In this document: positions 3,066 through 50,397 of the stretch, piece by piece
Position numbering within the stretch: the first letter of the stretch is position 1
Layout of the letters: each line of letters begins with the position of its first letter
DNA from: an uncultured Roseovarius sp.
GTDB lineage: Bacteria > Pseudomonadota > Alphaproteobacteria > Rhodobacterales > Rhodobacteraceae
Direction: 5' to 3'
DNA: 50,448 nt
Assembly (NCBI RefSeq): GCF_913054395.1
Contig: NZ_CAJXIP010000009.1
Coordinates: 1 to 50,448 of the forward strand
Translations under genes and position numbers: made by a program
The notes under the pieces: model-generated
The model's input: the letters and a program-made list of their open reading frames with translations, nothing else
What the model was told of the DNA's origin: nothing
Database searches by the model: none

Positions 3066-3599
3066 CTAGCGGGTGCTGCTGCGTTCGTTGCGCGCGCCGG
3101 TCACGATGATGGTGCGGGCTTCTTCCAAAGTCTGGGTCGAGATGAACTCGGCCACATGTACGGTGCGCGCACGCTCCGAGCCCTGAGGCTGGTTTTCCGG
3201 CTGGAGCGCCAGAAGTTTGTAGCGGAGCACGCCATTGACCGGCTCGCCCTTGTTGTCGGCAACGAGGCGCACGTCAAACGCCCCCTGACGCATGCTTAGC
3301 CCGGTCACACGTATGATGGCGCCGTCGGTTGTACGCTCGATCTTCATCTCGGTGATCTGGTCCACTGGCGTGCCGAGGTAGACCTCGGCCTTGTTGCGGC
3401 GGAAAATGCTGTCTTGCTTGACCGGAATGAGCGGGTTCACGTTTTCCGCAGGCGCCGTCGCCACCGGGCGTGATTTGCTTTTGCCGAACCAGTTGGCCGG
3501 GTTGACCCGCGAGTCGCGCAGACCGCCACAGCCCGCAAGAAGCATTGAGGAAACCATCGTGAGAGCAAGAAGGATGCGCATCAGTACCGCCTTTGACAT
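3066..3599 (-). CDS. Predicted lipoprotein, function unknown
   Basis: The 177-residue product starts with a short basic segment, a hydrophobic stretch and the lipobox LLAGC with the acylated cysteine at position 24, so it should be exported and anchored in a membrane by lipid. The mature part has an Asn/Pro/Arg-rich linker (residues 30-60) followed by a compact domain containing EVYLGTPVDQITEMKIERT, with no enzyme motif that I recognise. Similar small lipoproteins are common in Rhodobacterales next to sufE. The gene is convergent with rnd (6 bases between stops) and divergent from sufE, so it probably has its own promoter in the 3600-3700 region. An alternative start is Met7. Confidence 0.8.
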   Translation of the reverse strand: MSKAVLMRILLALTMVSSMLLAGCGGLRDSRVNPANWFGKSKSRPVATAPAENVNPLIPVKQDSIFRRNKAEVYLGTPVDQITEMKIERTTDGAIIRVTGLSMRQGAFDVRLVADNKGEPVNGVLRYKLLALQPENQPQGSERARTVHVAEFISTQTLEEARTIIVTGARNERSSTR

Positions 3600-3707
3600 C
3601 TTTTCCCTCGGTTACCCTATCCGGGCAGGGTTGAAAAGGTGCAAGCTGGGGCTGGACGTCGATCAACGCGGCGCCTAGGTCATAAGGCAAGCAAGAAGGA
3701 GCATGCG

Positions 3708-4118
3708 ATGGCCACGGAAACCTTTGAAGAGATTGTCGACGATTTCGAGTTTCTCGAGGATTGGGAAGACCGCTATCGCTATGTCATCGACTATGGCAAG
3801 GCGATGCCGGGACTTGACGAGGCGCTGAAGGTGCCCGCAACCAAGGTCGACGGCTGTGCCAGCCAGGTCTGGCTGCATCCGCGCATCGACGCCGGGCGGT
3901 TCAGCTTTGAGGGCGACAGCGATGCGATGATTGTGCGCGGGTTGATCGCGGTGCTGCGCGCGCTTTACAATGGCCTGCCGCTGGCCGAGGTCGTCAAGGT
4001 AGATGCGCCGGGAGAATTGGCGCGGCTCGGGCTTAATGACCATCTGTCCGCGCAACGCTCGAACGGGCTGCGGGCGATGATCGAGCGCATCCGGCTGGTG
4101 GCAAGCGAGGCGGCCTGA
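3708..4118 (+). CDS. sufE: SufE family cysteine desulfuration protein
   Basis: SufE takes persulfide sulfur from the cysteine desulfurase SufS and passes it to the SufBCD scaffold for Fe-S cluster assembly. The 136-residue product has the usual length. It shows the acceptor cysteine C50 in the conserved VDGCASQVW motif and the C-terminal helix region LSAQRSNGLRAMIERIR typical of the family. The ATG at 3708 is preceded by AGAAGGAG; the in-frame extension upstream to 3639 lacks this signal. No other suf gene is visible nearby, so the gene stands alone here. Confidence 0.93.
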   Translation: MATETFEEIVDDFEFLEDWEDRYRYVIDYGKAMPGLDEALKVPATKVDGCASQVWLHPRIDAGRFSFEGDSDAMIVRGLIAVLRALYNGLPLAEVVKVDAPGELARLGLNDHLSAQRSNGLRAMIERIRLVASEAA

Positions 4119-4156
4119 CCTGGCGGAGCGCCTGTGGCGCAGAGGTATGGCGTAAT

Positions 4157-4203
4157 GAGGGGTTTCACCCCTCAAACTCCCCAGAGTATTTAAGGAAAGA
4201 TGA
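4157..4203. repeat. Rhodobacterales-type intergenic repeat unit
   Basis: The segment holds a short hairpin, GAGGGG-TTTCA-CCCCTC, followed by AAACTCCCCAGAGTATTT and AAGGAAAGATGAA. The combination of a C/G hairpin, a CTCCCC(A/G)GAGTATTT core and a trailing AGATGAA is a form I recognise from many intergenic regions of roseobacter genomes. It lies between the convergent sufE and DUF1638 genes and may serve as a transcript end. I saw no second full copy in this window. Confidence 0.55.
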
Positions 4204-4209
4204 ACCTAA

Positions 4210-4860
4210 TCAGTGTTTTGCGGATTGACGTTCAAGTGATTTGGCAAGGTCCCCATATCCGGTGAAGCGATGCTCGAACCGCAGGCCGAGCCGGTCGGCG
4301 CAGGCGCGCGCCTTGACGATCAGAGCCGGGTCGTCGGTCTGGGCCTGGTAGATCAGGGTGGTGTAATTTCCGAAAATCATGTCGCGCAGTTCGGGATGGC
4401 GATCGAGGCCCATCGGTTTCCAGACGAAGGCATCGAACTGCCGGACCAGGAAATCGGTCAGGAAAAACGCGGTCATATCGGCGTCACCGCGTTCGGCAAA
4501 GCGGTCATTGCCTTCGAAAAACGAATAGCAATGCGGCCCCTCGACCATCTCGACGCCAAGTTCGGCGCATTTTGTCTGAAGCTCACCGCCGGTGCCGCAA
4601 TCGGCATAGACCACGAAGATATGATCATAGGCAGCGCGGTGCTTGAGCACGGCCTCTTCCACTGCGGCGGTGATCTTTTCGGGGTAGAGGTGAAGTTTGG
4701 CGGGCAGGCAGGTCAGATCCATGTGATCCCAGCCATTGAGCCGCTTGAGCGTCAGGATTTCATGCGCCAGGGCGCCGCAGGCGATCAACAGGATGCGCCC
4801 GCCATTGCGCGCCTCCAGGCCATGTTGGGTCAGCGTGTCATCGCTAGGCAGATCGGTCAT
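4210..4860 (-). CDS. DUF1638 domain protein, linked to corrinoid methyltransferase genes
   Basis: The 216-residue product matches the DUF1638 family by its Cys-containing motifs: LIACGALAHE (residues 25-34), LTCLPAKLHLYPEKI (49-63), VVYADCGTGGEL (83-94) and EGPHCYSFFEGN. The pattern of spaced cysteines and histidine suggests metal or cofactor binding, but the family has no assigned reaction that I know. DUF1638 genes often sit beside corrinoid protein and methyltransferase genes, and here the corrinoid protein is the next gene upstream on the same strand. A strong hairpin lies only 16 bases before the start, so read-through from the corrinoid gene would be reduced. The stop is next to the intergenic repeat shared with sufE. 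Confidence 0.85.
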   Translation of the reverse strand: MTDLPSDDTLTQHGLEARNGGRILLIACGALAHEILTLKRLNGWDHMDLTCLPAKLHLYPEKITAAVEEAVLKHRAAYDHIFVVYADCGTGGELQTKCAELGVEMVEGPHCYSFFEGNDRFAERGDADMTAFFLTDFLVRQFDAFVWKPMGLDRHPELRDMIFGNYTTLIYQAQTDDPALIVKARACADRLGLRFEHRFTGYGDLAKSLERQSAKH

Positions 4861-8537: not shown

Positions 8538-8699
8538 AGGTCCATTCCCCATTAGCAAGGCGGTGATGTTTTATCAGATATGCAATCCTGCGCGTCAAAG
8601 GGCAAGGGGCCAACGTGATCTTGCGACAATGCTGCCCATGCACTATGAGGACGCAACGGTACGGGGGACTCGGCCCCTGACCCAACCGGCGGAGTTGGC

Positions 8700-9461
8700 A
8701 TGGCGCGGCGCAAGAAAATCTACGAAGGCAAGGCGAAGACCCTTTATGAAGGGCCTGAACCCGGTACGATCATTCAATATTTCAAGGATGACGCCACGGC
8801 GTTCAACGCCGAGAAAAAGGCCGTCATCGAAGGCAAGGGCGTGCTCAACAACATGCTTTCGGAATATTTCATGACCGGTCTGAACACGATCGGCGTGCCG
8901 ACGCATTTCATCAAACGCATCAATATGCGTGAGCAACTGGTGCGCGCCTGCGAAATCGTCCCGCTTGAAGTGATCGTGCGCAACTATGCCGCAGGCACCA
9001 TGGCCAAGCGGCTTGGCATCGAAGAGGGCACGCAACTGCCGCGCCCGATCGTCGAATATTGCCTCAAGGACGACGCGCTTGGCGATCCGCTGGTGACCGA
9101 AGAACATATCGCGGCCTTTGGCTGGGCCAGCCAGCAGGACATGGACGACATCCTGAGCCTTGCACTTCGGGTCAATGATTTCATGGCCGGCGTGATGTTC
9201 GGTATCGGCATCAAGCTGGTTGATTTCAAGATCGAGATCGGCCGCGTCTATGACGGTGATTTCCAGCGCCTGATCATCGCCGACGAGATCAGCCCCGACA
9301 GCTGTCGCCTGTGGGATATCGAGACCGGTCGCAAGCTTGACAAGGACGTGTTCCGCCGTGATCTCGGCAGCCTAACGGATGCCTATAGCGAAGTGGCAAA
9401 CCGTCTTGGCATCATGCCCAAAGGCGCCACCCCGATGGCACGTCCGACGCTGATCAACTGA
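8700..9461 (+). CDS. purC: Phosphoribosylaminoimidazole-succinocarboxamide synthase
   Basis: PurC joins aspartate to carboxyaminoimidazole ribonucleotide using ATP. The 253-residue product has the family length and shows [12 protein letters not shown] at the N-terminus (ATP site), the SAICAR signature [13 protein letters not shown] (around residues 89-101) and [10 protein letters not shown] followed by [16 protein letters not shown], which carries the metal-binding acidic residues. It is the first gene of the purC-purS-purQ group, with 64 bases to purS. Confidence 0.97.
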
Positions 9462-9525
9462 ATGCGGGCCTGTGCCCGATGACCATCCGGCGCGCCGCGC
9501 CGCCAAAAGACATAGGAAAGACGCC

Positions 9526-9765
9526 ATGAAAGCTCGCGTGCATGTCATGTTGAAAAACGGGGTTCTCGATCCGCAGGGCGAGGCCGTGCGCCACGCGCTC
9601 GGGTCCTTGGGCTTTGACGGGGTGAACGGTGTTCGCCAGGGCAAGGTGATCGAGCTTGACCTGTCCGAGACCGACGCCGCCAAGGCAAAAGAGACAGTGA
9701 CCGCCATGTGCGACAAGCTTCTCGCCAATACCGTGATCGAAAGCTACAGCGTGGAGATCCTCTGA
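9526..9765 (+). CDS. purS: Phosphoribosylformylglycinamidine synthase subunit PurS
   Basis: PurS is the small structural subunit of the three-part FGAM synthase (PurL-PurQ-PurS). The 79-residue product starts [20 protein letters not shown], a conserved PurS N-terminus, and ends SYSVEIL. The ATG at 9526 follows the ribosome binding site AGGAAAG; the frame stays open upstream to 9472, but that part is not family sequence. Its stop overlaps the purQ start by one base (TGATG), indicating translational coupling. Confidence 0.96.
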
Positions 9766-10433
9766 TGCATGCCGCCGTCATCGTCTTTCCCGGCTCGAAC
9801 TGTGACCGTGACCTGGCCGTCGCTTTTGAGCGCGCAGGCGCGCGGGTGTCGATGGTCTGGCACAAGGATACGGACCTTCCGCAAGGGGTTGATATCATCG
9901 GCGTTCCGGGCGGGTTCTCGTTTGGCGACTACCTGCGTTGCGGGGCGATTGCGGCCAATTCCCCGATCTGCCGGTCGGTGATCGGACATGCGAAAAAGGG
10001 CGGTTATGTGCTTGGCGTCTGCAACGGTTTTCAGGTGCTGACGGAAACCGGTCTGTTGCCCGGTGTCCTGCTGCGCAACGCGGGGCTGAAATATATCTGC
10101 AAGCCGGTGTCGCTTACCGTGGAAACCGCCGATAGCGCGTTCACCCATGGCTATGCTGCAGGCAGCCATATCACCATTCCGATTGCCCATCACGATGGCA
10201 ATTACTTTGCCGATGCGGACACCCTTGACCGGCTTGAGGGCGACGACCGGGTGGCCTTTACCTATGACGACAATCCTAACGGGTCGGCCCGCGACATCGC
10301 CGGTATCCTGTCGGAGAACCGCCGGGTTCTCGGCATGATGCCGCATCCCGAGCGGATGGCAGAGCCGCTTCAGGGTGGCACCGATGGCGCGCCGATGTTT
10401 GCATCGCTGGTGGACCAGCTTGCTCTCGCCTGA
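9765..10433 (+). CDS. purQ: Phosphoribosylformylglycinamidine synthase, glutamine amidotransferase subunit PurQ
   Basis: PurQ hydrolyses glutamine and feeds ammonia to PurL for the formation of formylglycinamidine ribonucleotide. The 222-residue product is a class I amidotransferase with the nucleophile C86 in GVCNGFQVL and the partners H194 and E196 in MMPHPERM. The start PGSNCDRD (residues 9-16) is diagnostic. The ATG overlaps the last base of the purS stop. purL is not in the window; the next gene downstream is dctB. Confidence 0.97.
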
Positions 10434-40262: not shown

Positions 40263-40937
40263 CTACATAACGCTTTGATTTACATGGCCTTATGATTCGC
40301 GCACTGTGGCGTGATGTGCGCAGCATGCGAAGCAAACTTCCCCTTGGAGACCTGAAATTGCGGGCAAAATAGCCGCCCAAGATGCCGCGAGTCTCTGTTT
40401 GGCATTTGGCGCGATACGGTTTTCAGGCGGGGCATCGGGCGTTACTCCTGACTTCTGGCGATTTCGCTCGCCCTGTGGGATATATCCCTTAAGGCTGTAT
40501 GATCTGGTCGGCACGGGTGGTCGTCGAGCGCCGCAGGATTCTCGTCAGGATGCGTCTCCACGTGGCTTTCGTCCGAGGCCCCGTATCGCGCTTGAAATCG
40601 CCGCTGTCGCTGCTTGCCCCGATGTCGGTCTCCTTGCCTCAAAAGTCGGGGCATGCGTTTACAAACCTAGGGGCGCCTTACTTATCAAATTGCCTAATTT
40701 GGGCCCATAAAGCCTCATGTCAGACAACAACCGGAACCCGAAAGGATCAGCATCAGTTCAAATTTGACCTTGCGTAAACTGGGTTGTACACAAATAACAT
40801 GACCCCAGCACGGTCCTGCATAGGCCCGGCCTTATGATGCTTTGTCATACAGAACATTCGAATTGCGGCGCGCTTTGATGATGGTCAGGGCATTGTGTCC
40901 GCATTGAAAGAAATCAGGAAAGGGGCGATAGAACCGG
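40263..40937. other. 0.67 kb without a confident gene between tRNA-Ser and the cyclase gene
   Basis: The stretch has several short open frames on both strands (for example 40399-40710 plus), but their translations are Arg/Pro-rich and lack any motif. Base composition is more uneven than in the preceding genes. A short palindromic element GGGATATATCCC is present (40477-40488). No integrase, no copy of the tRNA 3' end and no transposon end is visible. It may be decayed DNA at the edge of an inserted region. Confidence 0.6.
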
Positions 40938-43268
40938 ATGTCGGATAGCGTAGGCAGTTGGCTGGCGGATCATGAACTGGCGGAATACGCGCCCCTATTT
41001 CACGACAACAAGATCGACATGTCCATTCTCACCGAACTGACGGTGGAAGATCTCAAGGATATGGGGATTGCGGCGGTGGGCGACCGGCGTCGCATCATGC
41101 GGGCCATCGCGGCCCTCGACAGCGGCGCCTCTGACCCGCTGTCGCGCGCGAGCCATCCGGTCGCGGCCAAGCGGCAGGTCACGGTGATGTTCGTCGATCT
41201 GTCTGGCTTCACAAAGTTGACGGGGGGTATGGACGTTGAGGATGCTCACGATCTTCTCAACGCCTTTTTCGCAGCTACCGATGGAATCTTCGAAACCTTC
41301 GGCGGCCGGATCGACAAGCATATCGGCGATGCCGTCATGGCCGTTTTCGGCGTTACGGCCTCCAACGTCAACGATACGGAACGGGCCGCGCGGGCCGCGC
41401 TTGAAATTCACACGGCGCTTCAGTCGCTCGAGGTCCCGCTGGCCTGTCACATTGGCATCGCGTCGGGGCAGGTGATCGCAAGTGCGATTGGAAGTGAGGT
41501 GCATACCGAATACACGCTTGTCGGCGACGGCGTAAACCTTGCGGCTCGGATTACCGATCAGGCGAAGGGCGGCGAGACGCTGATCTCGGACAATATACAT
41601 GTCGCCCTCGGCTCGCTTTTTCTGGGCGACGACATGGGCGAGGCCAGGCTTGCGGGCATAGACCAGCCGCAGCGCTTGTGGCGCCTGAGGGGAATTTCCA
41701 GCAGCCTGAGAACCCAACGCCACCGCTTCGTGGGGCGCAGGCGCGAGCTTTCGATGTTCCGGGCGGTATTAGAGCGTTGCCGCGATCACAAGGCTGGCGA
41801 AGTGCATGTGGTGCTGGGCGAACCGGGCATCGGCAAGAGCCATCTGTCCGAGGAGATAGCGGCGAACGCCCGCGAAATGGGCTATGCCATCCACAGCGCG
41901 GCGGTAACGGATTTCGGCGCACGCGAAGGGCATTCTGCTGTGCAAGTCCTGCTGCGCAGCCTGCTTGGCCTTGATGCGGACGCAACCGGCGAAATCGTGC
42001 AGGCCGCAGTCGAACAGGCCAGCAACATCGGCTGGATTGATCCGTCCAACCGGGTGCATATCAACGCGCTGCTTGATTTGAGCCAGGATGCGGGCGTGGC
42101 TGAAGTGTACGCCAATATGGATAACGCGACCCGGATGCGTGGCTGCCGCGCCGTATTCGACGAGTTGATCCGCGCCCGCAGCGCAGTCTCCCCACTGCTG
42201 CTCCAGATCGAAGACATCCACTGGGCCGCGCCGGACATCCTGTCGACTTTCGCGCATATAGCCTCTACCATCCGCACTCTGCCCTGCCTTCTGATGATGA
42301 CAAGCCGGATCGACGGCGATCCGCTGGATCTCGATTGGCAATCGCAGACGCGCGGTGTCCATCTGACCAAGATCGAGCTGTCGGGCCTGTCGGCGGCCCA
42401 CGCCCGCGACCTGGCCCAGGCCATCTTTGATAGCGGGGTGGACAACGTCGACGCCTTGATTGAGCGCGCCGAAGGTAATCCGTTGTTTCTGGAGCAGCTC
42501 TTGCGCAGCCGTGAGGCGATTGCGGGCGGTGGTCTTCCCGGCAGCATCCAGGCCATCGTTCAATCGCGGCTTGATTCGATCGCCCCCGAGGCGCGGCGCG
42601 CTATGCAGGCGGCCTCCGTGCTTGGCCAGCGCCTGTCGCCGGAGGCGCTGAACTTCCTGCTGGGGGAAATCACCTCGGATGTCCAACCCATGCTCAGATC
42701 CGGGCTGATGCGTGAAGACGGGGCCGATATCGTCTTTTCCCACGCGCTGATCCGTGACGGCTCTTACGAAAGCCTCTTCAAGGCCGAGCGTATTCGGCTG
42801 CACGAGCGCGCCGCCGAGTGGTTCTCGGGCCGCGATGCGACCCTGAGGGCGCAGCATCTCGACCGCGCGCAATCGCCCGAGGCCGGGCAGGCCTATCTTG
42901 ACGCGGCGACCAACCTGATCCACTCCTACCAGTTCCAGTCGGCAGAGCCGCTTCTTCAGCGCGCGCTCGAGCTGCCTGTCAAGCCCGAGATAAAGGTCAG
43001 CTTGCTCGGCGCGCTAGGCAAAGCGATGCGTCTGCAAGGGCGGTCGGACGAGGCGTTGGCGCAATGCGATGCCGCAGCCTCACTGGCCGAGACAGACGCG
43101 CAGATCTGTCGTATCCATATCGAACGCGCGCAGTCCGCGCGCCAGACCAGCCGGTATCAGGATGCGCTTGAAAGCCTGCAACTGGCTGAGGACGCGGCCC
43201 GCCGGACAGGCGATGAGCCGAACCTTGCGCAGGTCTATTACCTGCGCGGAAGAGGCGCTGGCCAGTAA
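40938..43268 (+). CDS. SAM-domain adenylate/guanylate cyclase with AAA ATPase and TPR region, frame broken near its 3' part
   Basis: The 776-residue product begins with a sterile alpha motif (residues 5-58; VGSWLADHELAEYAPLFH and LTVEDLKDMGI), followed by a class III nucleotide cyclase domain (76-250) with metal-binding Asp residues D87 in FVDLSGF and D131 in IGDAVMAVFG. Next comes an AAA/NACHT-like ATPase with Walker A GEPGIGKS (294-301) and Walker B-like SPLLLQIEDIHW, then TPR helices. It is a bacterial signalling cyclase that would make cAMP under control of the ATPase and TPR regions. The frame ends at 43268 with RGRGAGQ, while homologous TPR sequence continues in the next frame to 44178, so a small frameshifting deletion near 43250 is likely. 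Confidence 0.85.
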   Translation: MSDSVGSWLADHELAEYAPLFHDNKIDMSILTELTVEDLKDMGIAAVGDRRRIMRAIAALDSGASDPLSRASHPVAAKRQVTVMFVDLSGFTKLTGGMDVEDAHDLLNAFFAATDGIFETFGGRIDKHIGDAVMAVFGVTASNVNDTERAARAALEIHTALQSLEVPLACHIGIASGQVIASAIGSEVHTEYTLVGDGVNLAARITDQAKGGETLISDNIHVALGSLFLGDDMGEARLAGIDQPQRLWRLRGISSSLRTQRHRFVGRRRELSMFRAVLERCRDHKAGEVHVVLGEPGIGKSHLSEEIAANAREMGYAIHSAAVTDFGAREGHSAVQVLLRSLLGLDADATGEIVQAAVEQASNIGWIDPSNRVHINALLDLSQDAGVAEVYANMDNATRMRGCRAVFDELIRARSAVSPLLLQIEDIHWAAPDILSTFAHIASTIRTLPCLLMMTSRIDGDPLDLDWQSQTRGVHLTKIELSGLSAAHARDLAQAIFDSGVDNVDALIERAEGNPLFLEQLLRSREAIAGGGLPGSIQAIVQSRLDSIAPEARRAMQAASVLGQRLSPEALNFLLGEITSDVQPMLRSGLMREDGADIVFSHALIRDGSYESLFKAERIRLHERAAEWFSGRDATLRAQHLDRAQSPEAGQAYLDAATNLIHSYQFQSAEPLLQRALELPVKPEIKVSLLGALGKAMRLQGRSDEALAQCDAAASLAETDAQICRIHIERAQSARQTSRYQDALESLQLAEDAARRTGDEPNLAQVYYLRGRGAGQ

Positions 43269-44178
43269 CGCGCAGGCGCTGGACCTTGCGCGCGCCGTCG
43301 GCTCGGCTCGGCTCGAGGTTGGGGCACTCAGCGGCTTTGGCGATGCCTATTTCATGAGCGCCGCGATGAAAACGGCGGTCAGCTATTACACCCAGGCCGT
43401 TGAGCGCGCCCGCTCCGATGGGCTGGTACGCGATGTGGCCGCCAACCTGCATAATCTGAGTGTGGCGCGCAGCTATAGCGGCGACGTGGTGCAGGGCCGC
43501 AAGGATGGGATCGAGGCGGTCGAGGTCTCGCGCAGCTATTTCGCACTGGTGCCCGAATGCGTCGCGCTCACCTGCCTTGGTGTCGCCCACACGTTGCTCG
43601 ACGAGATAGAAGACGCGCTTGAGGTTTTCGCCAACTCGGCCGAAGTGGGCGCGCGGGTGGGGGCCAAGCGGCTTGAAGCACAGGCGCTCGAACATCTTGC
43701 GCGCACTCAGGTCTATGCCGGACTTGCAGAGGAAGCCGAGAAAACCGGCCGCAAAGCCGTCGGGGTCGCGCTTGAGCACGGGCCGAATTTCGTCGGGCCA
43801 AAAGCGATCTCCGCGCTGGCGCTCGCCATTTCCGACGCCGATGAGCAGGACCGCCTGCTGGAACAAGGAGAGGCCCTTGTTGCCAAGGGATGCGTGGGCC
43901 ACAATTACTTGCATTTCTACCCCGATGCCTGCGCGATCATGATCGACCGGGGCGAGTGGGAGCGCGCGCTGGCCTATGCCGATGCGCTGGAGCGCGTCAC
44001 CCAAAAAGAGCGGCTTCCCTTGGTGGACCTCACCCTGCGCGAAATCCGTTGTCTTGCCGAAGCCGGGCAACACGGGAATGCGCCTACAGAGGGGGAGGGC
44101 GCCGACACCCTGCGCACCGACTTTGCTCGCACGGGGGTGCGTCGAAGCCTCTCCGGCCGGACCGATTTCATCATCTGA
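43241..44178 (+). pseudogene. Frameshifted continuation of the cyclase gene (C-terminal TPR part)
   Basis: In the +1 frame relative to the cyclase, the translation from about 43248 continues the TPR pattern: EEALASNAQALDLARAVGSA, then LSGFGDAYFMSAAMKTAV, LHNLSVARSYSGDVVQGRKD, LGVAHTLLDEIEDALEVFAN and EHLARTQVYAGLAEEAEKTG. This is the tail that such ATPase/TPR cyclases normally have. The break falls at CTGCGCGGAAGAGGCG, and roughly ten codons expected between the two TPR helices seem absent, which suggests a deletion of 3n+2 bases rather than a sequencing slip of one base. No ribosome binding site precedes it, so independent translation is unlikely. Confidence 0.7.
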
Positions 44179-44321: not shown

Positions 44322-45449
44322 ATGAGTGTAGAGAGCAAGATCTGGATTTTATCCTGCGTGGTGTCGGCCGTATTGGCCTCTATCCTGTTCATGCTGTGGG
44401 TGGAGATGAACCGGTTCGAAGGCGACCCGACCCAGATATACGATAAGGCCGCCGTCACAGAGTATTTTGAGACCGCCGGGGTTGACCCCGCTTACCGGGT
44501 TAAAACCGGCGTCTACATCCAGTCGCTTGAATATACGGGGGCCACGGATGTGAACGTGAGCGGCTATGTCTGGCAGCTTTACGAAGACGGTGTGCATGAT
44601 GCGATCAAACCTGCCCCCGGTGAGATCGGCTTTATTCTGCCCGAACGGGTCAATGTAGGAGATGGGGTGATCGAAGAGGCCTATCGGCTCAGGCGCGGCA
44701 ATGGTGATCTCATTGGCTGGTATTTCGAGCAAACCCTGCGCCAGACCTTCGATTACACCGCTTACCCGTTCGACCACAAAACCGTCTGGGTCCGGCTCTG
44801 GCCCGGCACCTTTGGCGAGGATGTGGTGCTGGTGCCCGATTTCGAGGCTTACCCGGCCACCGGTCCCACGGATGTTTTCGGCATCGACGAGCGCATCGTT
44901 CTGGGCACATGGGAACGGGAGAATACCTATTTTGACTACAAGCCTTCCGACCTCGGCACCAGCCTGGGGCTTGATCGCCCCCCCCAGCAAACGGGCTTTC
45001 CCGAGTTGCATTACAACATCGTGGTGAAGCGCAAATTCGGCAACGCCTTCATCGTGCACATGGTGCCGCTTTTCGTGGTTTCGACGCTGCTTTTTGGCGC
45101 GCTGATGACGGTCACCCGCAAGGAAGATCTGGCCGCGCGGCATGATTTCAGCACCTCCGGCGTGATCGAAACCGCCTCGGTGCTGTTCTTCGTCGTGCTT
45201 CTTGCGCATGTCCAACTGCGCGAATCCATTGCCGGGTCGGAAGTGATATATATGGAGTATTTTTACTTCCTGATGTATTTCCTGCTGCTTGGCGTGTCGG
45301 TGAACACCTATTTCTTCGTCTCCGGCATCATGCCCTCATCGCGCCTGCTGAATTACCACGACAACCTTATTCCCAAGGCCGCGTTCTGGCCTGCGGTTCT
45401 GGCGGCGATGATCGTGATCACGCTCTATAGCATTGTGCTTCACATGTGA
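44322..45449 (+). CDS. Pentameric ligand-gated ion channel-like membrane protein
   Basis: The 375-residue product has an N-terminal membrane anchor (residues 7-27), an extracytoplasmic beta-rich region (about 40-240) and four C-terminal membrane helices (241-263, 278-299, 309-333 and 352-373). This is the layout of Cys-loop-type pentameric channels with an added anchor. The segment DYTAYPFDHKTVWVRLWP (144-161) matches the conserved (Y/F)PFD..T..(I/V).L stretch of the ligand-binding domain, and HMVPLFVVSTLLFGAL carries the helix-1 proline. The paired cysteines of animal channels are absent, as in the other prokaryotic members. The ion and ligand are unknown. The gene is codirectional with the broken cyclase gene and convergent with the 1199-residue gene. 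Confidence 0.65.
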   Translation: MSVESKIWILSCVVSAVLASILFMLWVEMNRFEGDPTQIYDKAAVTEYFETAGVDPAYRVKTGVYIQSLEYTGATDVNVSGYVWQLYEDGVHDAIKPAPGEIGFILPERVNVGDGVIEEAYRLRRGNGDLIGWYFEQTLRQTFDYTAYPFDHKTVWVRLWPGTFGEDVVLVPDFEAYPATGPTDVFGIDERIVLGTWERENTYFDYKPSDLGTSLGLDRPPQQTGFPELHYNIVVKRKFGNAFIVHMVPLFVVSTLLFGALMTVTRKEDLAARHDFSTSGVIETASVLFFVVLLAHVQLRESIAGSEVIYMEYFYFLMYFLLLGVSVNTYFFVSGIMPSSRLLNYHDNLIPKAAFWPAVLAAMIVITLYSIVLHM

Positions 45450-45491: not shown

Positions 45492-45511
45492 AGCCCGCTA
45501 CTGCGCGGGCT
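45492..45511 (-). terminator. Hairpin around the stop codon of the 1199-residue gene
   Basis: AGCCCGC and GCGGGCT flank the stop region as a 7-bp stem with a small loop, between the convergent channel and multidomain genes. No clear T-run follows, so its action as a terminator is uncertain. Confidence 0.4.
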
Positions 45512-48500
45512 CAAATCCGGGCTTGAGGTCGCCCCGCGCCATGTCTTCGGTGTAAACCGCCACTGTCTCGGCCTCGCCCGCTTCCAGTGCCGCCAGATGC
45601 GGGGTTGGATCGGCAATGACATAGGCATAGGCGTGCTCGACCGCCCCCTCAACGACCACGGTGATCTTCTTTCGAAGGTAGACGTTTTCGGTTGAGGCGG
45701 GGCCGTGATAGCCCTCAAGCTGGTCGAGCGCCCGCAGGCCCGCCGCCGTCACGCGGTACACCTCGCCCTCTACCTGCTGGCCTTTGCCCTTGAGGTCTAC
45801 AAGCGTGGCCATGCGGTGCAGATAGGCGCAATTGGGGTTGTCACAGCGCGGCTCCTTCTGAACGATGAGCGGCATCGACTGACGCGTATTCGCGGGGCCT
45901 ATAAATGTGCCGAGGTGCTCGGCGTGGGCCTCGTGGTTCGGAAAGCCGCGCTTGAGCGAACCGTAGGTGAAATAGAGATAGCTTTCCTCGGCGCTTTTCG
46001 TTTCCGACCCGGATGTGGCCTGAGCAGCGGAAGTTGCCACAGAGATCCCCTTGGCCTGTGCCCAGTCCATGAGGCGCGCGCGAATGGCCTCCGGCACGGC
46101 CTTGTCCTGCGCGAAATGCAGGCAAGGGCCCGCATCAATCCCCTCGGCCCCCAGCAGAATATCCACCATCTCGGACGAGGCGTTGGCGATTGCCACATGG
46201 AGCGCGGTGAAGCCCATATCATTTTGGGCGTTCAGGTTGATGCCCCGCGCAATGAGATCGCGCGCCGCCTCAAGGTCTGGCACGCCGCGCGCAATGCCGT
46301 TCTCGGTCATCTCACCCTCGCCACCGGCAGCGAAGTGCAAGAGCGAGTCACCCGTCAGATCGTCGATCACGTCGATGCCCACCACCCCCTCGTCGATGGA
46401 GCGGAAAACCCGCTTCCATTGCGCGTATTCGTCAGAGGCGGCAGCGTCGCGCGCCCAGCGGATGATCCGCTGTTCCTGATCGTCAAGCTGCTCGAAGGCC
46501 CCCTCCAGCGCCATCATGACCTGATCGGGCGTGGCCATCATGCCAACCCCCATCGTCCCGTTCGAAAGCATCCCCTCGCGCGGGCCCACAAACTCAACAC
46601 CAAGTGTTTTCAACGCCGCCACGTTGTTCTGGGTGGTTATATTGTTCCACATATGCGTGTTGCAGGCCGGGCACAGAACGACGGGCTTGCGTTGGTATTG
46701 CCAGGCGACAAAGATCGACGACAGCAGATTGTCGGCGATACCATTGGCGATCTTGCCCATGGTGTTGCATGTGACGGGGGCCAACACGATACAATCGGCC
46801 CAGTCGCAAAGCGCCAGATGCGAGGCCCGCAGGGGCATTCCGTAGTTGATATAATGAAAGTTCCACTCATCGTCATCGCGGTAAATGTCGTGCGCGCGGA
46901 TCCGGGATAAAATTCGGTCGGCCGCGTGATCCTTGAAGAATTTCTCTGCCGCGACCGAAGGAATAAGCTTCACATTGTGCCCCGCGTCGGTGATCCGTTC
47001 CACCAGTTCGGGGATCTTGTCAGCCGCAGAAGAGCCGCAAGCGGCCAGCAGAACGTTGCGTTTGCCATCGGGCGGCTCGTTCAGCCCGCCCTTGGGATAT
47101 CCAAAGATGTTCTTGTCGAGACTGGGCGATTCGTGGCGCAGAAGCACCGGAAGCCCCTCTTCGGCGATCCGCGCCTGAAGGCTGCCATCCATGACCATGC
47201 CCACGATATCGTCGCGCGCACCAAGCCATTCACCCCTGAAAAACAGGTAAGGCACGGAATCCTGCCCGGTCATGGCCACCAGTTGCCGCCGCATCTTTAT
47301 CGAGCGCAACGCATGGCCCGAAACGTCTATGGCGGCCAGTTCGGTCACGCCGATATTGTCGAGGATATTGCGCAGCATGTTCGACCATGGATCCTCGTCG
47401 TCGTAAAAGAGCGCGATCGTGTTGGCCTGGACAATGCCCGGGGCGTCATCGGCCACCTGGACCTGCGCGCGTTCCTCTATCATCAGCATCTCGGGGTTGT
47501 GCAAATCCCTCAAGCCGCGGAAAATCTGCGACCTCGGTGCCTGCCAGACCTGCGAGGTTGCCGGGCTCATATCAACCAAAGTCACCAGGTCGTCGGCCTC
47601 GTCATATGCGATGCAGATGCACCAGAACTCTTCCAGAAGCGCCGTTTCGCGGTACAGGTTGTCGGGCGCTTTGATCACGTCGAATCCGAGCACGCGGTTG
47701 AGATCTATATTTATCATCAGGTGACGACCGTCGTGATCTTCAAGGCTGCTGAGTTGCGCCTTGAACCAGTCCTGCGGTGACAACTCGCGGTGTTCTTCCG
47801 CCCGTTCGTTATAGTTGCGGAACTCGCTGCCGAGATGCGTATGAACCGCCTGTGCCAGATACATCTTGGCAATCCGGTCCATCTCGCGCGCATCCGACAC
47901 GCGGCTCAGCGTCTCGCTGTAGGCGGCGGTCGAGGAGAGCAGCAGTTTGTCCTCGTTCACGTCTGGATCGCCAAGGATAGCAAGGCTTTCCGAAAGCACG
48001 CCCAGACTGTTCAGGTTGGGGCTGGCGCGGCGGAAAAGGTTGCGCTTCTTGCGCCGTCCACTCGACAGATAGCGCGTCGTGTCCACGTAATGGCAGGGCG
48101 GCTTGAGAGATTTCAGCCGTGTCTTGACCGCTTGGCGCGCGGAGAACCGCAAGAGCCCGCGCGCGCGCATCGAGGTACCGTCACGGTCCGACATCGCCGC
48201 ATAGAGCCGGTCCACGGTCGTCACCCAGAGCTTGCCGTATTTCTCCGGGTGCACATCCATCATATGAACCAAACCGGTACTGGGGTTGCACTTGGCTATA
48301 ATGGCGAAATGGCCGCCGGGCATATTCTCTCTGCCATGGGCCATGCCGACCTGAAAGTTGGCCACGAGGATGTCGTTATCGCCGCCAAGCCGGTTCGATT
48401 CTTCGATTGCGGCCAGAAGTTGCTCGGGCGAGGTGGTGGCCGTATCCATGAAATAGGTGTGCACCTGAACCATCTCGCGCAGGCCCAGCTTGTAGATATA

Positions 48501-49097
48501 GGTGCAGGCCACGTCGAACAGTTCGGCCAGCGAAATCCCGTCGCTGACCACGAAGCTTGCGGGCAACTCGCATTCCCGGAAGATGTCGTTCACCTCGCAA
48601 GAAAACCCGAGCGCAGACATGCTCAACGCCGCAGCCGTCACGCTACAGCAATTGATGGGTTGCTGGAAATTCTGCATATGAACCGAAACCAGATCGCCAA
48701 AGAGAGTGGCGAACGCGGCGGTGCGCAGGTTCTCAGGCAGCGCGAACCATTCAGCGCTGGAGAGATAGGCAAGCCGCGTTCCCGGCGCGGCGAGCGCCTC
48801 CATCGTTACCGGGATGTTGAATATTTCGAGGTGTTCCTCATAGAAGTAATCGCCCGCATCTGCGGTCGCGAGCGTGGTTTCGTTCTGCCGAAGTGCCACC
48901 GCACCATCGAGCACCACGTACATGCCATCGGGCGCAAGGATCGCGTCGGCCGCAACCTCGAGCATGCGGAACCTTGGCCGGATGTCTTCAAAATCAACCA
49001 TGCTTGCGTCGCCCTGGAAGGCAGACAAGATCATGCCGAAATCCGCGTCGGACAGATTTGAGGCATCGCGCGTCATGATGGGCTGTCTCGAATTCAT
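45498..49097 (-). CDS. 1199-residue multidomain protein: phytochelatin synthase fold, HFCD flavoprotein, ankyrin and gamma-glutamylcyclotransferase domains
   Basis: Domains by eye: Crp-like beta-roll without the cAMP-binding motif (about 35-135); phytochelatin synthase/papain fold (141-320) with triad C150 (QPINCCSVTAAA), H263 (GGHFAIIAK) and D281 (MMDVHP); a degenerate second copy (about 360-545) keeping D509 but not Cys or His; a glutaredoxin-like fold (555-650) whose active-site Cys is lost (YDDEDPWSN) but which keeps VPYLFFRGEWLGARDDI; an HFCD flavoprotein (679-865) with H760 (ASHLALCDWAD), APVTCNTMGKIANGIADNLL and CPACNTHMWNN; ankyrin repeats (915-1010); gamma-glutamylcyclotransferase/AIG2-like domain (1039-1165) with YGSLKRG and E1128 in LDQLEGY. 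No signal peptide or membrane helix is seen, so it is probably cytosolic. The ATG at 49097 has AAGGAG 7 bases upstream; a GTG seven codons earlier is weaker. Confidence 0.85.
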   Translation of the reverse strand: MNSRQPIMTRDASNLSDADFGMILSAFQGDASMVDFEDIRPRFRMLEVAADAILAPDGMYVVLDGAVALRQNETTLATADAGDYFYEEHLEIFNIPVTMEALAAPGTRLAYLSSAEWFALPENLRTAAFATLFGDLVSVHMQNFQQPINCCSVTAAALSMSALGFSCEVNDIFRECELPASFVVSDGISLAELFDVACTYIYKLGLREMVQVHTYFMDTATTSPEQLLAAIEESNRLGGDNDILVANFQVGMAHGRENMPGGHFAIIAKCNPSTGLVHMMDVHPEKYGKLWVTTVDRLYAAMSDRDGTSMRARGLLRFSARQAVKTRLKSLKPPCHYVDTTRYLSSGRRKKRNLFRRASPNLNSLGVLSESLAILGDPDVNEDKLLLSSTAAYSETLSRVSDAREMDRIAKMYLAQAVHTHLGSEFRNYNERAEEHRELSPQDWFKAQLSSLEDHDGRHLMINIDLNRVLGFDVIKAPDNLYRETALLEEFWCICIAYDEADDLVTLVDMSPATSQVWQAPRSQIFRGLRDLHNPEMLMIEERAQVQVADDAPGIVQANTIALFYDDEDPWSNMLRNILDNIGVTELAAIDVSGHALRSIKMRRQLVAMTGQDSVPYLFFRGEWLGARDDIVGMVMDGSLQARIAEEGLPVLLRHESPSLDKNIFGYPKGGLNEPPDGKRNVLLAACGSSAADKIPELVERITDAGHNVKLIPSVAAEKFFKDHAADRILSRIRAHDIYRDDDEWNFHYINYGMPLRASHLALCDWADCIVLAPVTCNTMGKIANGIADNLLSSIFVAWQYQRKPVVLCPACNTHMWNNITTQNNVAALKTLGVEFVGPREGMLSNGTMGVGMMATPDQVMMALEGAFEQLDDQEQRIIRWARDAAASDEYAQWKRVFRSIDEGVVGIDVIDDLTGDSLLHFAAGGEGEMTENGIARGVPDLEAARDLIARGINLNAQNDMGFTALHVAIANASSEMVDILLGAEGIDAGPCLHFAQDKAVPEAIRARLMDWAQAKGISVATSAAQATSGSETKSAEESYLYFTYGSLKRGFPNHEAHAEHLGTFIGPANTRQSMPLIVQKEPRCDNPNCAYLHRMATLVDLKGKGQQVEGEVYRVTAAGLRALDQLEGYHGPASTENVYLRKKITVVVEGAVEHAYAYVIADPTPHLAALEAGEAETVAVYTEDMARGDLKPGFEPAQ

Positions 49098-49572
49098 GCT
49101 TGGCTCCTTAATGTTCACGCGGTTTTCATTGGCTGTGCCTGTTGGCCAAGTGGGAACCGGTTGAATAAATATAACTAAGCGAAATTAAACCAGTTTTTCT
49201 AAATTTTGCAAACGCGCTGAGTGGGCCCCGGTGTTTAATCTCGGGTCTCGATGGCGTGGTCCGTTTTTTGTGTAGGGTGCGGCGACCCTTGGGACATCTT
49301 TTTTATCCCTTTTCGCGGATAGCGCCCTGGGGCCGAGACTGCCGTTAAGGGCGCCTGTGGCGAGACCCGACCCCAGCAAGGTGGCTTATCCGGAAACCTT
49401 CGCTTTCACCGTGGGATTGCGCGTGTCAAGGCTCCAAGAAACTCCGGCGCGTTAGCAGGAGCAAGCCATCTCATCACGGCGACCACTTCGTCTTCAGGTG
49501 TCCGTCGTCAGAGATATTGGGCTAGTTGGCCGCATGAACTAAGAGAGGGTCTGGCTCATCTGGTTAGTCTGA
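49098..49572. other. 0.47 kb AT-richer intergenic stretch, no confident gene
   Basis: Next to the multidomain gene it is AT-rich (about 49160-49215) and holds a probable promoter. The remainder, up to the GGT fragment, has no open frame with a recognisable product and several small hairpins such as CTTCAGGTG-type repeats that I could not assign. I saw no transposase sequence or terminal repeat. An in-frame stop at 49570-49572 borders the GGT homology. Confidence 0.55.
49184..49211 (-). promoter_or_regulatory. Probable promoter of the 1199-residue gene
   Basis: On the minus strand TTGCAA (-35) and TTTAAT (-10) are separated by 16 bases, in an AT-rich stretch. The -10 element ends 87 bases upstream of the chosen start codon. 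The spacing and elements fit the housekeeping sigma factor. Confidence 0.55.
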
Positions 49573-50397
49573 TTATGCGGCGGATTACTGACCTCCGCCG
49601 ATCTGGAAGGCTGCGCCCCGGACTGGACCACCCCGATCGAAGGCAGCTATCGCGGACGGCGTATAGTGACCAACCGCCCACCCGGTGGCGGAGTGATGCT
49701 TCTTGAAATGCTCAATATTCTCGAGAATTTCGAACTTTCGAACTATGAACATAACAGCCCGGCCTATATCGCGCTTGTGTCGGAGGCCATGAAACGCGCG
49801 ACAATCGACAAGGATAAACGCGTTGGTGATCCTCGCTTTGTTGACGTACCGCTAAGCAAACTCACCGGCAAGGAGCATGCGGCGAACCTCGCCAATGAGA
49901 TACGTCGCGGCGAACGGGCCACAGTCCGGCGGTTGCCGCCCGCAGATGCCGTTCCGCGCGACACAACACATATTTCCGTGGTCGATAGCGATGGCAACTG
50001 CGTGGCAATGACCCATTCGCTTGGTATGCCGGCCGGCGTGATAACGCCCGGTCTTGTCTTCATGTACAACGGGTGCATGGGGGTATTCGATCCCCCTCCC
50101 GGCCGCGCGGTTTCAATCGCACCGGGGAAATCGCGCTTTAGTGCAATATGCCCCACAATCATGTTTGAAGACGACACGCCAGCGCTGGTGCTGGGCGCGC
50201 CCGGAGGGACGCAGATTGTGATGGGCGTGCTGCAAACCATCCTGAACACGGTCGATTTCGGCATGTCGGTGACAGAAGCAGTTTCAGCACCGCGATTTTC
50301 TTCGACGGGCAATGCGATTGATGTCTCCAACCGGATTCCGCGCTCAGTCACCCGGACGCTGGAGGCTGACGGTCGCAACGTCATTCGCAATCCCTAG
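49573..50397 (+). pseudogene. 5'-truncated gamma-glutamyltransferase (C-terminal part with the catalytic Thr)
   Basis: The frame contains the end of the large subunit (GGLLTSADLEGCAPDWTTPIEG, then IVTNRPPGGGVMLLEMLNIL) and the small subunit beginning at the catalytic DTTHISVVDSDGNCVAMT, followed by SIAPGKSRFSAICPTI and LGAPGGTQI. GGT cleaves the gamma-glutamyl bond of glutathione. The homologous part starts abruptly after an in-frame stop at 49570-49572, so about half of the large subunit, including any signal peptide, is missing. A TAG at 50395 also ends the frame some 30-40 residues short of a normal C-terminus. The longest ATG/GTG-start reading begins at 49666. It is therefore a remnant, unless a start outside the usual set is used. 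Confidence 0.8.

Follow-up and report, generated by a model that had tools for sequence, protein, structure and literature searches.

The window analysed here, 50,448 nucleotides from an uncultured Roseovarius sp., carries on its minus strand a single open reading frame (45498..49118) coding for 1206 residues from a GTG, with an internal ATG at 49097 as an alternative start. It places a phytochelatin-synthase domain, an HFCD flavoprotein and a gamma-glutamylamine cyclotransferase (GGACT) on one polypeptide, as the initial annotation had proposed for three such enzymes, and the order is kept in relatives. We consider it probable, at a little under 60%, that the product is a single-chain glutathione-dismantling enzyme whose three domains act in sequence. 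From homology we infer the reactions, their order and the roles of the non-catalytic parts. The phytochelatin-synthase domain, working like Alr0975 through C158, H270 and D288, would cleave the glycine off glutathione and so expose the C-terminal cysteine of the resulting gamma-glutamylcysteine. The HFCD domain, with FMN and residues H767, N820 and M823, would oxidise the thiol and then decarboxylate the intermediate to gamma-glutamyl-aminoethenethiol or, if C819 lets FMNH2 reduce this product, to gamma-glutamyl-cysteamine. Either product would be a gamma-glutamylamine, from which the GGACT domain (E1135) would free 5-oxoproline and an aminothiol. A degenerate phytochelatin-synthase copy and a redox-dead glutaredoxin fold may bind the gamma-glutamyl-thiol substrate or pass it on. 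Regulation may fall to the Crp-like domain and ankyrins, tied to an adjacent class III cyclase, and sensing or transport of the product to a channel-like protein encoded next to the fusion.

Several points argue for this reading. The domain order equals the proposed reaction order. The nearest solved relatives form a logical series: 2bu3 (Alr0975 acyl-enzyme with glutathione), 1mvn (PPC decarboxylase with pantothenoylaminoethenethiol) and 3juc (gamma-glutamylamine cyclotransferase with 5-oxoproline). Predicted catalytic residues are unchanged in three domains, while the glutaredoxin fold has lost its cysteines and the second phytochelatin-synthase copy its Cys and His. Each domain has a known relative, and it is the combination that predicts a reaction series; we did not find the series from glutathione via gamma-glutamylcysteine and a decarboxylated gamma-glutamylamine to a free aminothiol in the open-access literature. 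The same genome encodes a glutathione synthetase; a search of it for the cysteamine-dioxygenase family (PF07847) gave no match, as did the control.

Architecture and distribution of the fusion

The domains run in the order Crp-like, phytochelatin synthase, degenerate second copy, glutaredoxin fold, HFCD flavoprotein, ankyrin repeats and GGACT. Orthologues with this order, which the initial annotation had suggested seeking, comprise 38 full-length relatives and one ending at a contig edge. The distribution is patchy and mainly among marine bacteria. As 27 of the 40 loci are from Ruegeria or Silicibacter, the loci are not independent (match coordinates in genomes G460 and G688 are identical to those of loci L023 and L026). 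Residue conservation was counted over the query and 39 loci, omitting the split locus L061. The full-length alignment A1, which excludes L061 and L050 (contig end), has 24 rows: those below 90% identity (25 of 39), minus L045 and L047 (undetermined bases), plus L051.

In a cyanobacterial metagenome bin, the only genome in which a split version was seen, the same pieces are coded by three genes. These correspond to residues 68-551, the glutaredoxin, HFCD and ankyrin part, and the GGACT part (41%, 53% and 48% identity respectively), and the latter two genes overlap by 4 bases. Their boundary falls in a fast-evolving linker (residues 1016-1044; 45987..46073, minus strand), where dN/dS is 0.32-0.84 versus 0.04-0.22 in folded domains where it is computable (4 comparisons). 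Each folded domain with computable dN/dS is under purifying selection (4 of 40 loci tested), and values against the two nearest relatives are lowest in the first phytochelatin-synthase domain and HFCD. The structure model of the whole fusion (pTM 0.46) is too low in confidence for domain placement or channelling, and its VIA-align list spans mainly residues 666-1003, with the Crp-like, second phytochelatin-synthase and glutaredoxin regions unlisted.

That the fusion is phage or plasmid cargo was rejected: none of the viral contigs matched the fusion search patterns, the plasmid and phage matches listed (30 of 59, 8 of 60 and 10 of 28) concern the flavoprotein part and its edges only, and the first phytochelatin-synthase domain alone had no plasmid match.

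Catalytic domains and the predicted reactions

The first phytochelatin-synthase domain (residues 135-330; 48129..48716, minus strand) scores 38.5 bits against PF05023 (curated cut-off 24.9), a family matched by all 24 fusion rows at E <= 0.01. The predicted papain-like triad C158/H270/D288 is invariant in 14 of 14 rows of alignment A8, which include four stand-alone homologues and the split copy, the cysteine being placed by alignment only. The second copy (residues 340-555; 47454..48101, minus strand) is related to the first by hhalign (E 9e-06, probability 83) and is degenerate, with Asn and Phe at the catalytic Cys and His positions and the Asp retained; F498 and D516 are invariant in 40/40 rows. 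The nearest described enzyme is Alr0975, the primitive phytochelatin synthase of Nostoc (2btw, 2bu3, 6tho), whose profile match reaches only the His/Asp half of the first domain. Unlike Alr0975, a solved protein of 218-254 residues, the fusion domain has a QQPINCC signature, is followed by the degenerate copy and is fused to two further enzymes. A phytochelatin-synthase-like enzyme, NsPCS, has been described as converting GSH to gamma-glutamylcysteine (PMC12065762), and the first domain is likewise predicted to take glycine off glutathione.

By both profile score and fold, the next enzyme domain (residues 680-880; 46479..47081, minus strand) belongs to the HFCD flavoproteins (PF02441), and it appears to be of the cysteine decarboxylase type. 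Its H767, N820 and M823, which we take to be the catalytic His and the substrate-binding Asn and Met of PPC decarboxylase, are present in 40/40 rows and shared with AtHAL3a (1mvn/1mvl) and CoaBC, at 36% identity in the Foldseek alignment. Two features nevertheless set it apart from PPC decarboxylase. The PxMNxxMW motif reads PACNxxMW, with C819 in 40/40 rows where CoaBC-like matches in this genome and its relatives all have Met (20 of 20), and the position of the reducing Cys175 of AtHAL3a is Asn853 in 40/40 rows, versus Cys in 19 of those 20 matches. We therefore do not class the domain as a PPC decarboxylase; scores against the NCBIfam CoaBC and CoaC equivalogs are below cut-off (128.2 versus 219.7 and 95.7 versus 261.4 bits). 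An ordinary CoaBC duplicate is ruled out by these motifs and by a separate CoaBC-like gene on another contig of the same genome. The initial annotation's statement that the three enzymes keep their catalytic residues thus holds for the predicted residues, invariant in aligned relatives, but not for the flavoprotein's reducing cysteine and motif.

These substitutions bear on the product of the flavin step. With Asn in place of the CoA-type reducing cysteine, the product may be aminoethenethiol, and there is a substantial chance, though one short of even, that the step is purely oxidative, as in EpiD, giving 2-aminoethenethiol or aminothioacetaldehyde and not cysteamine. This is a sub-case of glutathione dismantling, not an alternative to it; its product would break down to sulfide or serve as a sulfur donor. 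Consistent with it, both Foldseek and VIA-align place the pantothenoylaminoethenethiol-containing C175S mutant first among solved structures, and EpiD-type chemistry is compatible with loss of the reducing cysteine. On the other hand, the invariant new C819 directly before the catalytic Asn could take over the reducing role, making it possible that cysteamine is still the product, and a released thioaldehyde would be highly reactive. The peptidyl-cysteine decarboxylases EpiD, MrsD and TvaF, which act on ribosomal peptides, are only 20-28% identical to the domain, below AtHAL3a. Given the altered motif and the Asn at the reducing position, the fusion's HFCD domain could differ from known HFCD enzymes in substrate or product.

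The C-terminal enzyme domain (residues 1045-1200; 45519..45986, minus strand) scores 58.4 bits against PF06094 (Pfam cut-off 22.8), and its YGSL motif (Y1052-L1055) and catalytic Glu, E1135, are present in 40/40 rows. Originally called a gamma-glutamylcyclotransferase, it is indeed a cyclotransferase, but one closest to gamma-glutamylamine cyclotransferase (1vkb, 3jub, 3juc), with 1vkb the best solved match. That the nearest solved relative acts on gamma-glutamylamines fits a decarboxylated substrate, and specificity for gamma-glutamylamines over gamma-glutamyl-amino acids is predicted. GGACT (A2LD1) was solved as a stand-alone protein, whereas the domain here is fused and carries an invariant C-x4-C-x3-H insertion. 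With this refinement, the domains and their conserved catalytic residues support a small-molecule thiol pathway, which may be, as first suggested for the chain, a complete one.

Non-catalytic parts and conserved neighbours

The N-terminal domain (residues 30-134; 48717..49031, minus strand), first read as Crp-like, resembles the cyclic-nucleotide-binding family PF00027 weakly (E 0.03; 14.7 bits, below the curated cut-off of 27.5), although 13 of 24 fusion rows match at E <= 0.01 (best E 3.5e-5). The usual cassette Arg seems absent on visual inspection of the corresponding position in a set of fused members; together with the low score, this makes simple cAMP binding doubtful. The glutaredoxin-like domain (residues 562-660; 47139..47435, minus strand) lies just under the PF00462 cut-off (E 1.6e-4; 22.3 versus 22.9 bits) and retains the VPY proline. 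Its CPxC position reads DPWS (D576, W578 and S579 in 40/40 rows, P577 in 39/40), so that it is a glutaredoxin fold with neither CxxC nor CxxS and is predicted to be redox-inactive. Ankyrin repeats (residues 885-1015; 46074..46466, minus strand) are recognised by Pfam and by structure.

Two plus-strand neighbours had not been mentioned in the initial annotation. The first, a SAM - class III cyclase - AAA ATPase - TPR gene by Pfam (40908..44178), lies in two frames here (tblastn pieces 40908-43244 and 43249-44172) and is a single frame of about 1100 residues in relatives. A homologue adjoins the fusion, in several arrangements, at 33 of 40 loci, the other seven having none within the fetched flank; in the cyanobacterial split bin, a cyclase of another type and a FIST protein lie nearby. 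The second gene (44322..45449), convergent with the fusion, has homologues beside it at 32 of 40 loci, with none in the fetched flank of the other eight. Its product matches no Pfam family at E <= 0.1 and no PDB chain at E <= 10. The AlphaFold2 model (m169b2a40092e; pLDDT 68, helices weaker) has a beta-sandwich ligand domain and four membrane helices, and its best Foldseek match is GLIC (E 3.5e-11, 338 columns, TM 0.44-0.52, rmsd 8.8). We call the protein a divergent pentameric ligand-gated channel-like protein, by predicted fold only. It shares that fold with GLIC and ELIC at about 15% identity; unlike them, it has an extra N-terminal helix and is invisible to Pfam. Its alignment (A3) was built from the window and 23 of the 32 homologue-bearing loci; L043 has a Cache-fused form.

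Distant channel-like homologues occur without the fusion in 6 of 394 family genomes, and the flanks fetched for them (short in L110 and L111) contain homologues of neither the cyclase nor the fusion. Conversely, G590 has the fusion but lacks a channel-like gene, so that linkage between channel and fusion is limited to a subfamily. In Acaryochloris, a plasmid bears a channel-like gene of 42% identity, and nothing within 12 kb of it is annotated as a glutathione or decarboxylase enzyme.

In PADLOC the cyclase matches Pycsar cyclases (E 2.7e-19), which may reflect no more than a class III cyclase domain in common. No match there was obtained for the channel-like protein, and the fusion has a single one, in the ankyrin region (E 0.009); a role in anti-phage defence was rejected on these grounds. 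Also set aside as a system member was the gamma-glutamyltranspeptidase next door, which has no homologue in the fetched relatives. Among the 18 neighbourhoods listed, whose gene calls are longest-frame guesses rather than gene-finder predictions, only the cyclase and channel-like gene have homologues near more than 22 loci. The Rhodospirillaceae/SAR116 bins have further neighbours in common with one another, an aminotransferase and a MetE-like protein being two of them.

Competing readings and biological meaning

Rather unlikely, in our judgement, is a role in natural-product or sulfur-transfer metabolism in which gamma-glutamyl is a carrier group and the substrate is either a glutathione S-conjugate or a dedicated precursor borne on that group. 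HFCD chemistry requires a free thiol, so S-conjugates would stall before the second step, and the limited set of recurring neighbours also argues against this reading, although it could apply to the Rhodospirillaceae/SAR116 bins with their extra shared genes. In its favour, phytochelatin synthases are reported to act on glutathione S-conjugates too (PMC3561135), and roseobacters, the bacterial group shared with the fusion, use TdaF, an HFCD-like protein, in tropodithietic acid synthesis, with cysteamine as a proposed co-product (PMC7497051). In the producing strains, which have TdaF and the TdaR resistance genes, a gamma-glutamyl-cyclotransferase homologue is adjacent; unlike in the fusion, the Tda proteins are separate, TdaR3 is ChaC-like, and the available excerpt of that paper mentions no phytochelatin-synthase domain.

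We think it improbable that the chain is a glutathione or thiol sensor, its catalytic folds serving mainly as ligand-binding modules that report to the cyclase and channel-like protein. The recurrent cyclase adjacency in several arrangements, the cyanobacterial bin with its different cyclase and FIST protein, and the degeneracy of two of five enzyme-like domains would suit a sensor; yet the other three have invariant catalytic residues and two of these have the lowest dN/dS, which is unusual for pure binding modules, and at seven loci the fetched flank contains no homologue of the cyclase. Finally, the segments do not fall into unrelated folds, and the idea that separate genes were joined by chance or in assembly, for all that a split version exists, is refuted to near certainty by the 39 same-order relatives, one cut by a contig end, and by a genome on one contig that has a copy at 53% identity.

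If glutathione dismantling is correct, bacteria would have a route of aminothiol production that bypasses coenzyme A, the fusion of a gamma-glutamylamine cyclotransferase to a cysteine decarboxylase would be explained, and a natural ligand of a bacterial channel would have a candidate source. The sole experimental hint for the channel-ligand step comes from ELIC, another bacterial channel of that fold, which opens with cysteamine and responds most strongly to it at low concentration (PMC3119659). We regard as unlikely the fuller proposal of a new one-chain, cyclase-controlled route from glutathione to cysteamine (or aminoethenethiol) whose product acts as ligand on the channel-like protein next door. 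Were it true, the locus would be a bacterial system for both producing and sensing an aminothiol signal of its own.

The fused chain and its relatives

The minus-strand frame 45498-49118 encodes 1206 residues, in which a phytochelatin-synthase domain, an HFCD flavoprotein, ankyrin repeats and a GGACT cyclotransferase all score above the Pfam cut-offs; a glutaredoxin match misses its cut-off narrowly, a cyclic-nucleotide-binding match by a wide margin. When the 24 rows of a full-length alignment (49-84% identity to the window protein) were scanned individually, the three enzyme families and Ank were found in every row, cNMP_binding in 13 and Glutaredoxin in 11. Residues 340-555, which carry no Pfam name, resemble the first phytochelatin-synthase domain in profile comparison (E 9e-06, probability 83); this second copy has Asn at the Cys position and Phe498 at the His position, with the Asp (D516) retained.

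One scan of genome contigs gave 40 loci. The frame is closed, stop to stop, over at least 1190 residues in 38 of them, the others being L050, which begins at a contig end, and L061, where the protein is split. The single chain with these enzyme domains reported in the initial annotation is confirmed, and strengthened by closed frames in 38 relatives. By record title, 27/40 loci are from Ruegeria or Silicibacter; others are from Roseivivax, Seohaeicola and Roseibacterium, from metagenome or single-cell genomes titled Rhodobacteraceae, Rhodospirillaceae, SAR116 or Alphaproteobacteria, and from two gammaproteobacterial bins (Aestuariirhabdus, Halieaceae) and a cyanobacterial bin. The distribution is patchy: the fusion is present in 0/35 same-genus genomes, where matches are to the flavoprotein part, except for a single weak fragment that falls in the glutaredoxin part; in 1/398 genomes drawn from the phylum, namely the window's own; and at full profile length in 5/394 family genomes, again counting the window's own, with one further weak match.

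Across the window protein and 39 loci (all except L061), H270, D288, H767, N820, M823, YGSL and E1135 are present in 40/40 rows, and C158 in all 39 rows covering the position. At the cysteine previously named as nucleophile (C157 in our numbering) two rows have Ser, which makes C158 the stronger candidate, and the stand-alone homologues agree with this choice. DPWS occupies the position of the glutaredoxin CPxC. Within the GGACT domain, residues 1092-1101 (45816-45845) form an invariant C-x4-C-x3-H insertion, a gap in two aligned mammalian sequences, which is perhaps a metal site.

A split version and stand-alone homologues

In the cyanobacterial metagenome bin G828, locus L061 has a glutaredoxin-HFCD-ankyrin gene (488 aa) overlapping by 4 bases with a GGACT gene (162 aa, 48% identical to its fused counterpart). 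Elsewhere in this bin, on a different contig, a third gene (503 aa) corresponds to fusion residues 68-551 (41% identity), a span that takes in the two phytochelatin-synthase copies and a portion of the Crp-like domain. This split version is known from one genome, and bins may carry contamination. Its second gene boundary coincides with a fast-evolving linker of the fused protein, for which dN/dS is 0.32-0.84, as against 0.04-0.22 for the folded domains where computable (four comparisons). Upstream of the split enzyme genes (L061 6015-9229) lie OsmC, FIST and a GAF-linked cyclase, which differs from the SAM-type cyclase found beside the fusion; together they are possibly a sensor set.

Stand-alone homologues of the first domain were detected in 4/292 genomes drawn from the phylum of the cyanobacterial bin, with a weak match in a fifth. 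These four proteins (L083, L084, L085 and L086; 191-219 aa, 33-35% identical to the fused domain) bear the QQPxxCC signature and the triad, and nothing else in their fetched flanks matches the fusion protein.

Gene neighbourhood and possible mobility

A SAM-cyclase-AAA-TPR homologue accompanies the fusion at 33/40 loci. It lies downstream on the opposite strand in 31 loci, and on the same strand after the fusion in L043 and before it in L059 and L087; none was found in the fetched flanks of L045, L047, L049, L050, L051 and L058, where some contigs are short. The window cyclase, 40908-44178 (+), is broken into frames of 776 and 369 aa, the reading frame shifting near 43245. In L025 a single uninterrupted protein of about 1100 aa matches both pieces; the window gene may be a genuine pseudogene, or the shift may stem from a sequencing error.

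The single-contig genome G590 carries a fusion 53% identical to that of the window, with a cyclase gene ending 33 bases before it. At this locus (L087 5001-16349) the cyclase, the fusion and a 571-aa frame are flanked by two transposase-like frames, 91% mutually identical, in an arrangement resembling a composite transposon, which suggests that the cyclase-fusion group moved as a cassette. Elsewhere, a 329-aa frame in L088 2263-8209 matches phytochelatin synthase weakly; about 1.7 kb from it lies a further SAM-type cyclase.

The second recurrent neighbour, with a homologue at 32/40 loci, gave no Pfam match and no PDB sequence match. Its model (pLDDT 68) matches the channel GLIC with E 3.5e-11, but with rmsd 8.8 and TM about 0.5; the window gene, 44322-45449 (+), and L098-L104 represent a divergent GLIC-fold channel-like family with an extra N-terminal helix. 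Strong orthologues (E < 1e-200) occur in 4/394 family genomes, all four with the fusion; G590, the fifth fusion genome, has none, and six other genomes of the sample, all lacking the fusion, carry a distant homologue. A 42% identical protein is encoded on an Acaryochloris plasmid. In L043 (10695-12866) a dCache (Cache) sensor domain precedes a fused channel-like protein, of which that genome has a second copy on a different contig (L113 3-1025). In L112 (7528-9731), a pair of small frames of 201 and 138 aa, resembling an inserted element, separates the two matching parts of a distant channel-like gene.

L049 and L047, from Rhodospirillaceae/alphaproteobacterial genomes, are without cyclase and channel-like genes nearby; L049 has a MetE-like (Meth_synt_2) gene upstream of the fusion (3278-4438) and an aminotransferase downstream (8589-9788), with similar frames in L047. 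Near the window end, a gamma-glutamyltranspeptidase frame divergent to the fusion, 49666-50397 (+), extends over no more of its 512-position profile than positions 226-480; the fetched relatives yielded no homologue of it.

A flavoprotein variant and a proposed pathway

The HFCD domain is 36% identical to the PPC decarboxylase AtHAL3a, whose C175S mutant with bound pantothenoylaminoethenethiol is the best solved structure by both Foldseek and VIA-align. The reducing residue of AtHAL3a, Cys175, is replaced by Asn853, and the Met before the catalytic Asn by Cys819, both invariant in fusion rows. Among 20 CoaBC-like matches in this genome and related ones, 19 have Cys at the reducing position and all 20 have Met before Asn. 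On these residue differences we therefore do not file the domain as a PPC decarboxylase; by sequence it is a variant of its own.

The earlier suggestion of a complete small-molecule thiol pathway is partly supported, and can be made specific. Glutathione would be trimmed to gamma-glutamylcysteine, the exposed cysteine would be decarboxylated, and the amine would be released with formation of 5-oxoproline. This order is sensible and matches the domain order, although we infer every reaction; the product may be an enethiol or a saturated thiol, and the final product is the weakest point of the reading. The most telling detail is that the last domain, with best solved matches 1vkb, 2kl2, 3jub and 3jud, is of the gamma-glutamylamine cyclotransferase type, because the substrate would become a gamma-glutamylamine only after decarboxylation. 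The phytochelatin-synthase-like NsPCS converts GSH to gamma-glutamylcysteine (PMC12065762), cysteamine is proposed as a co-product of the HFCD-like TdaF (PMC7497051), and cysteamine gives the strongest response at low concentration in ELIC, a bacterial channel of the fold predicted for the channel-like neighbour (EC50 0.365 mM; PMC3119659). A link between that response and the channel-like protein of this locus is an idea rather than a finding.

Our literature search, which covered mainly openly accessible papers, found none that joins these parts, and a description elsewhere is possible; five terms sought in a computational survey of phytochelatin synthases from cyanobacteria and algae (PMC11314372) were all absent. 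The fusion is a new combination of known families, including a new flavoprotein variant.
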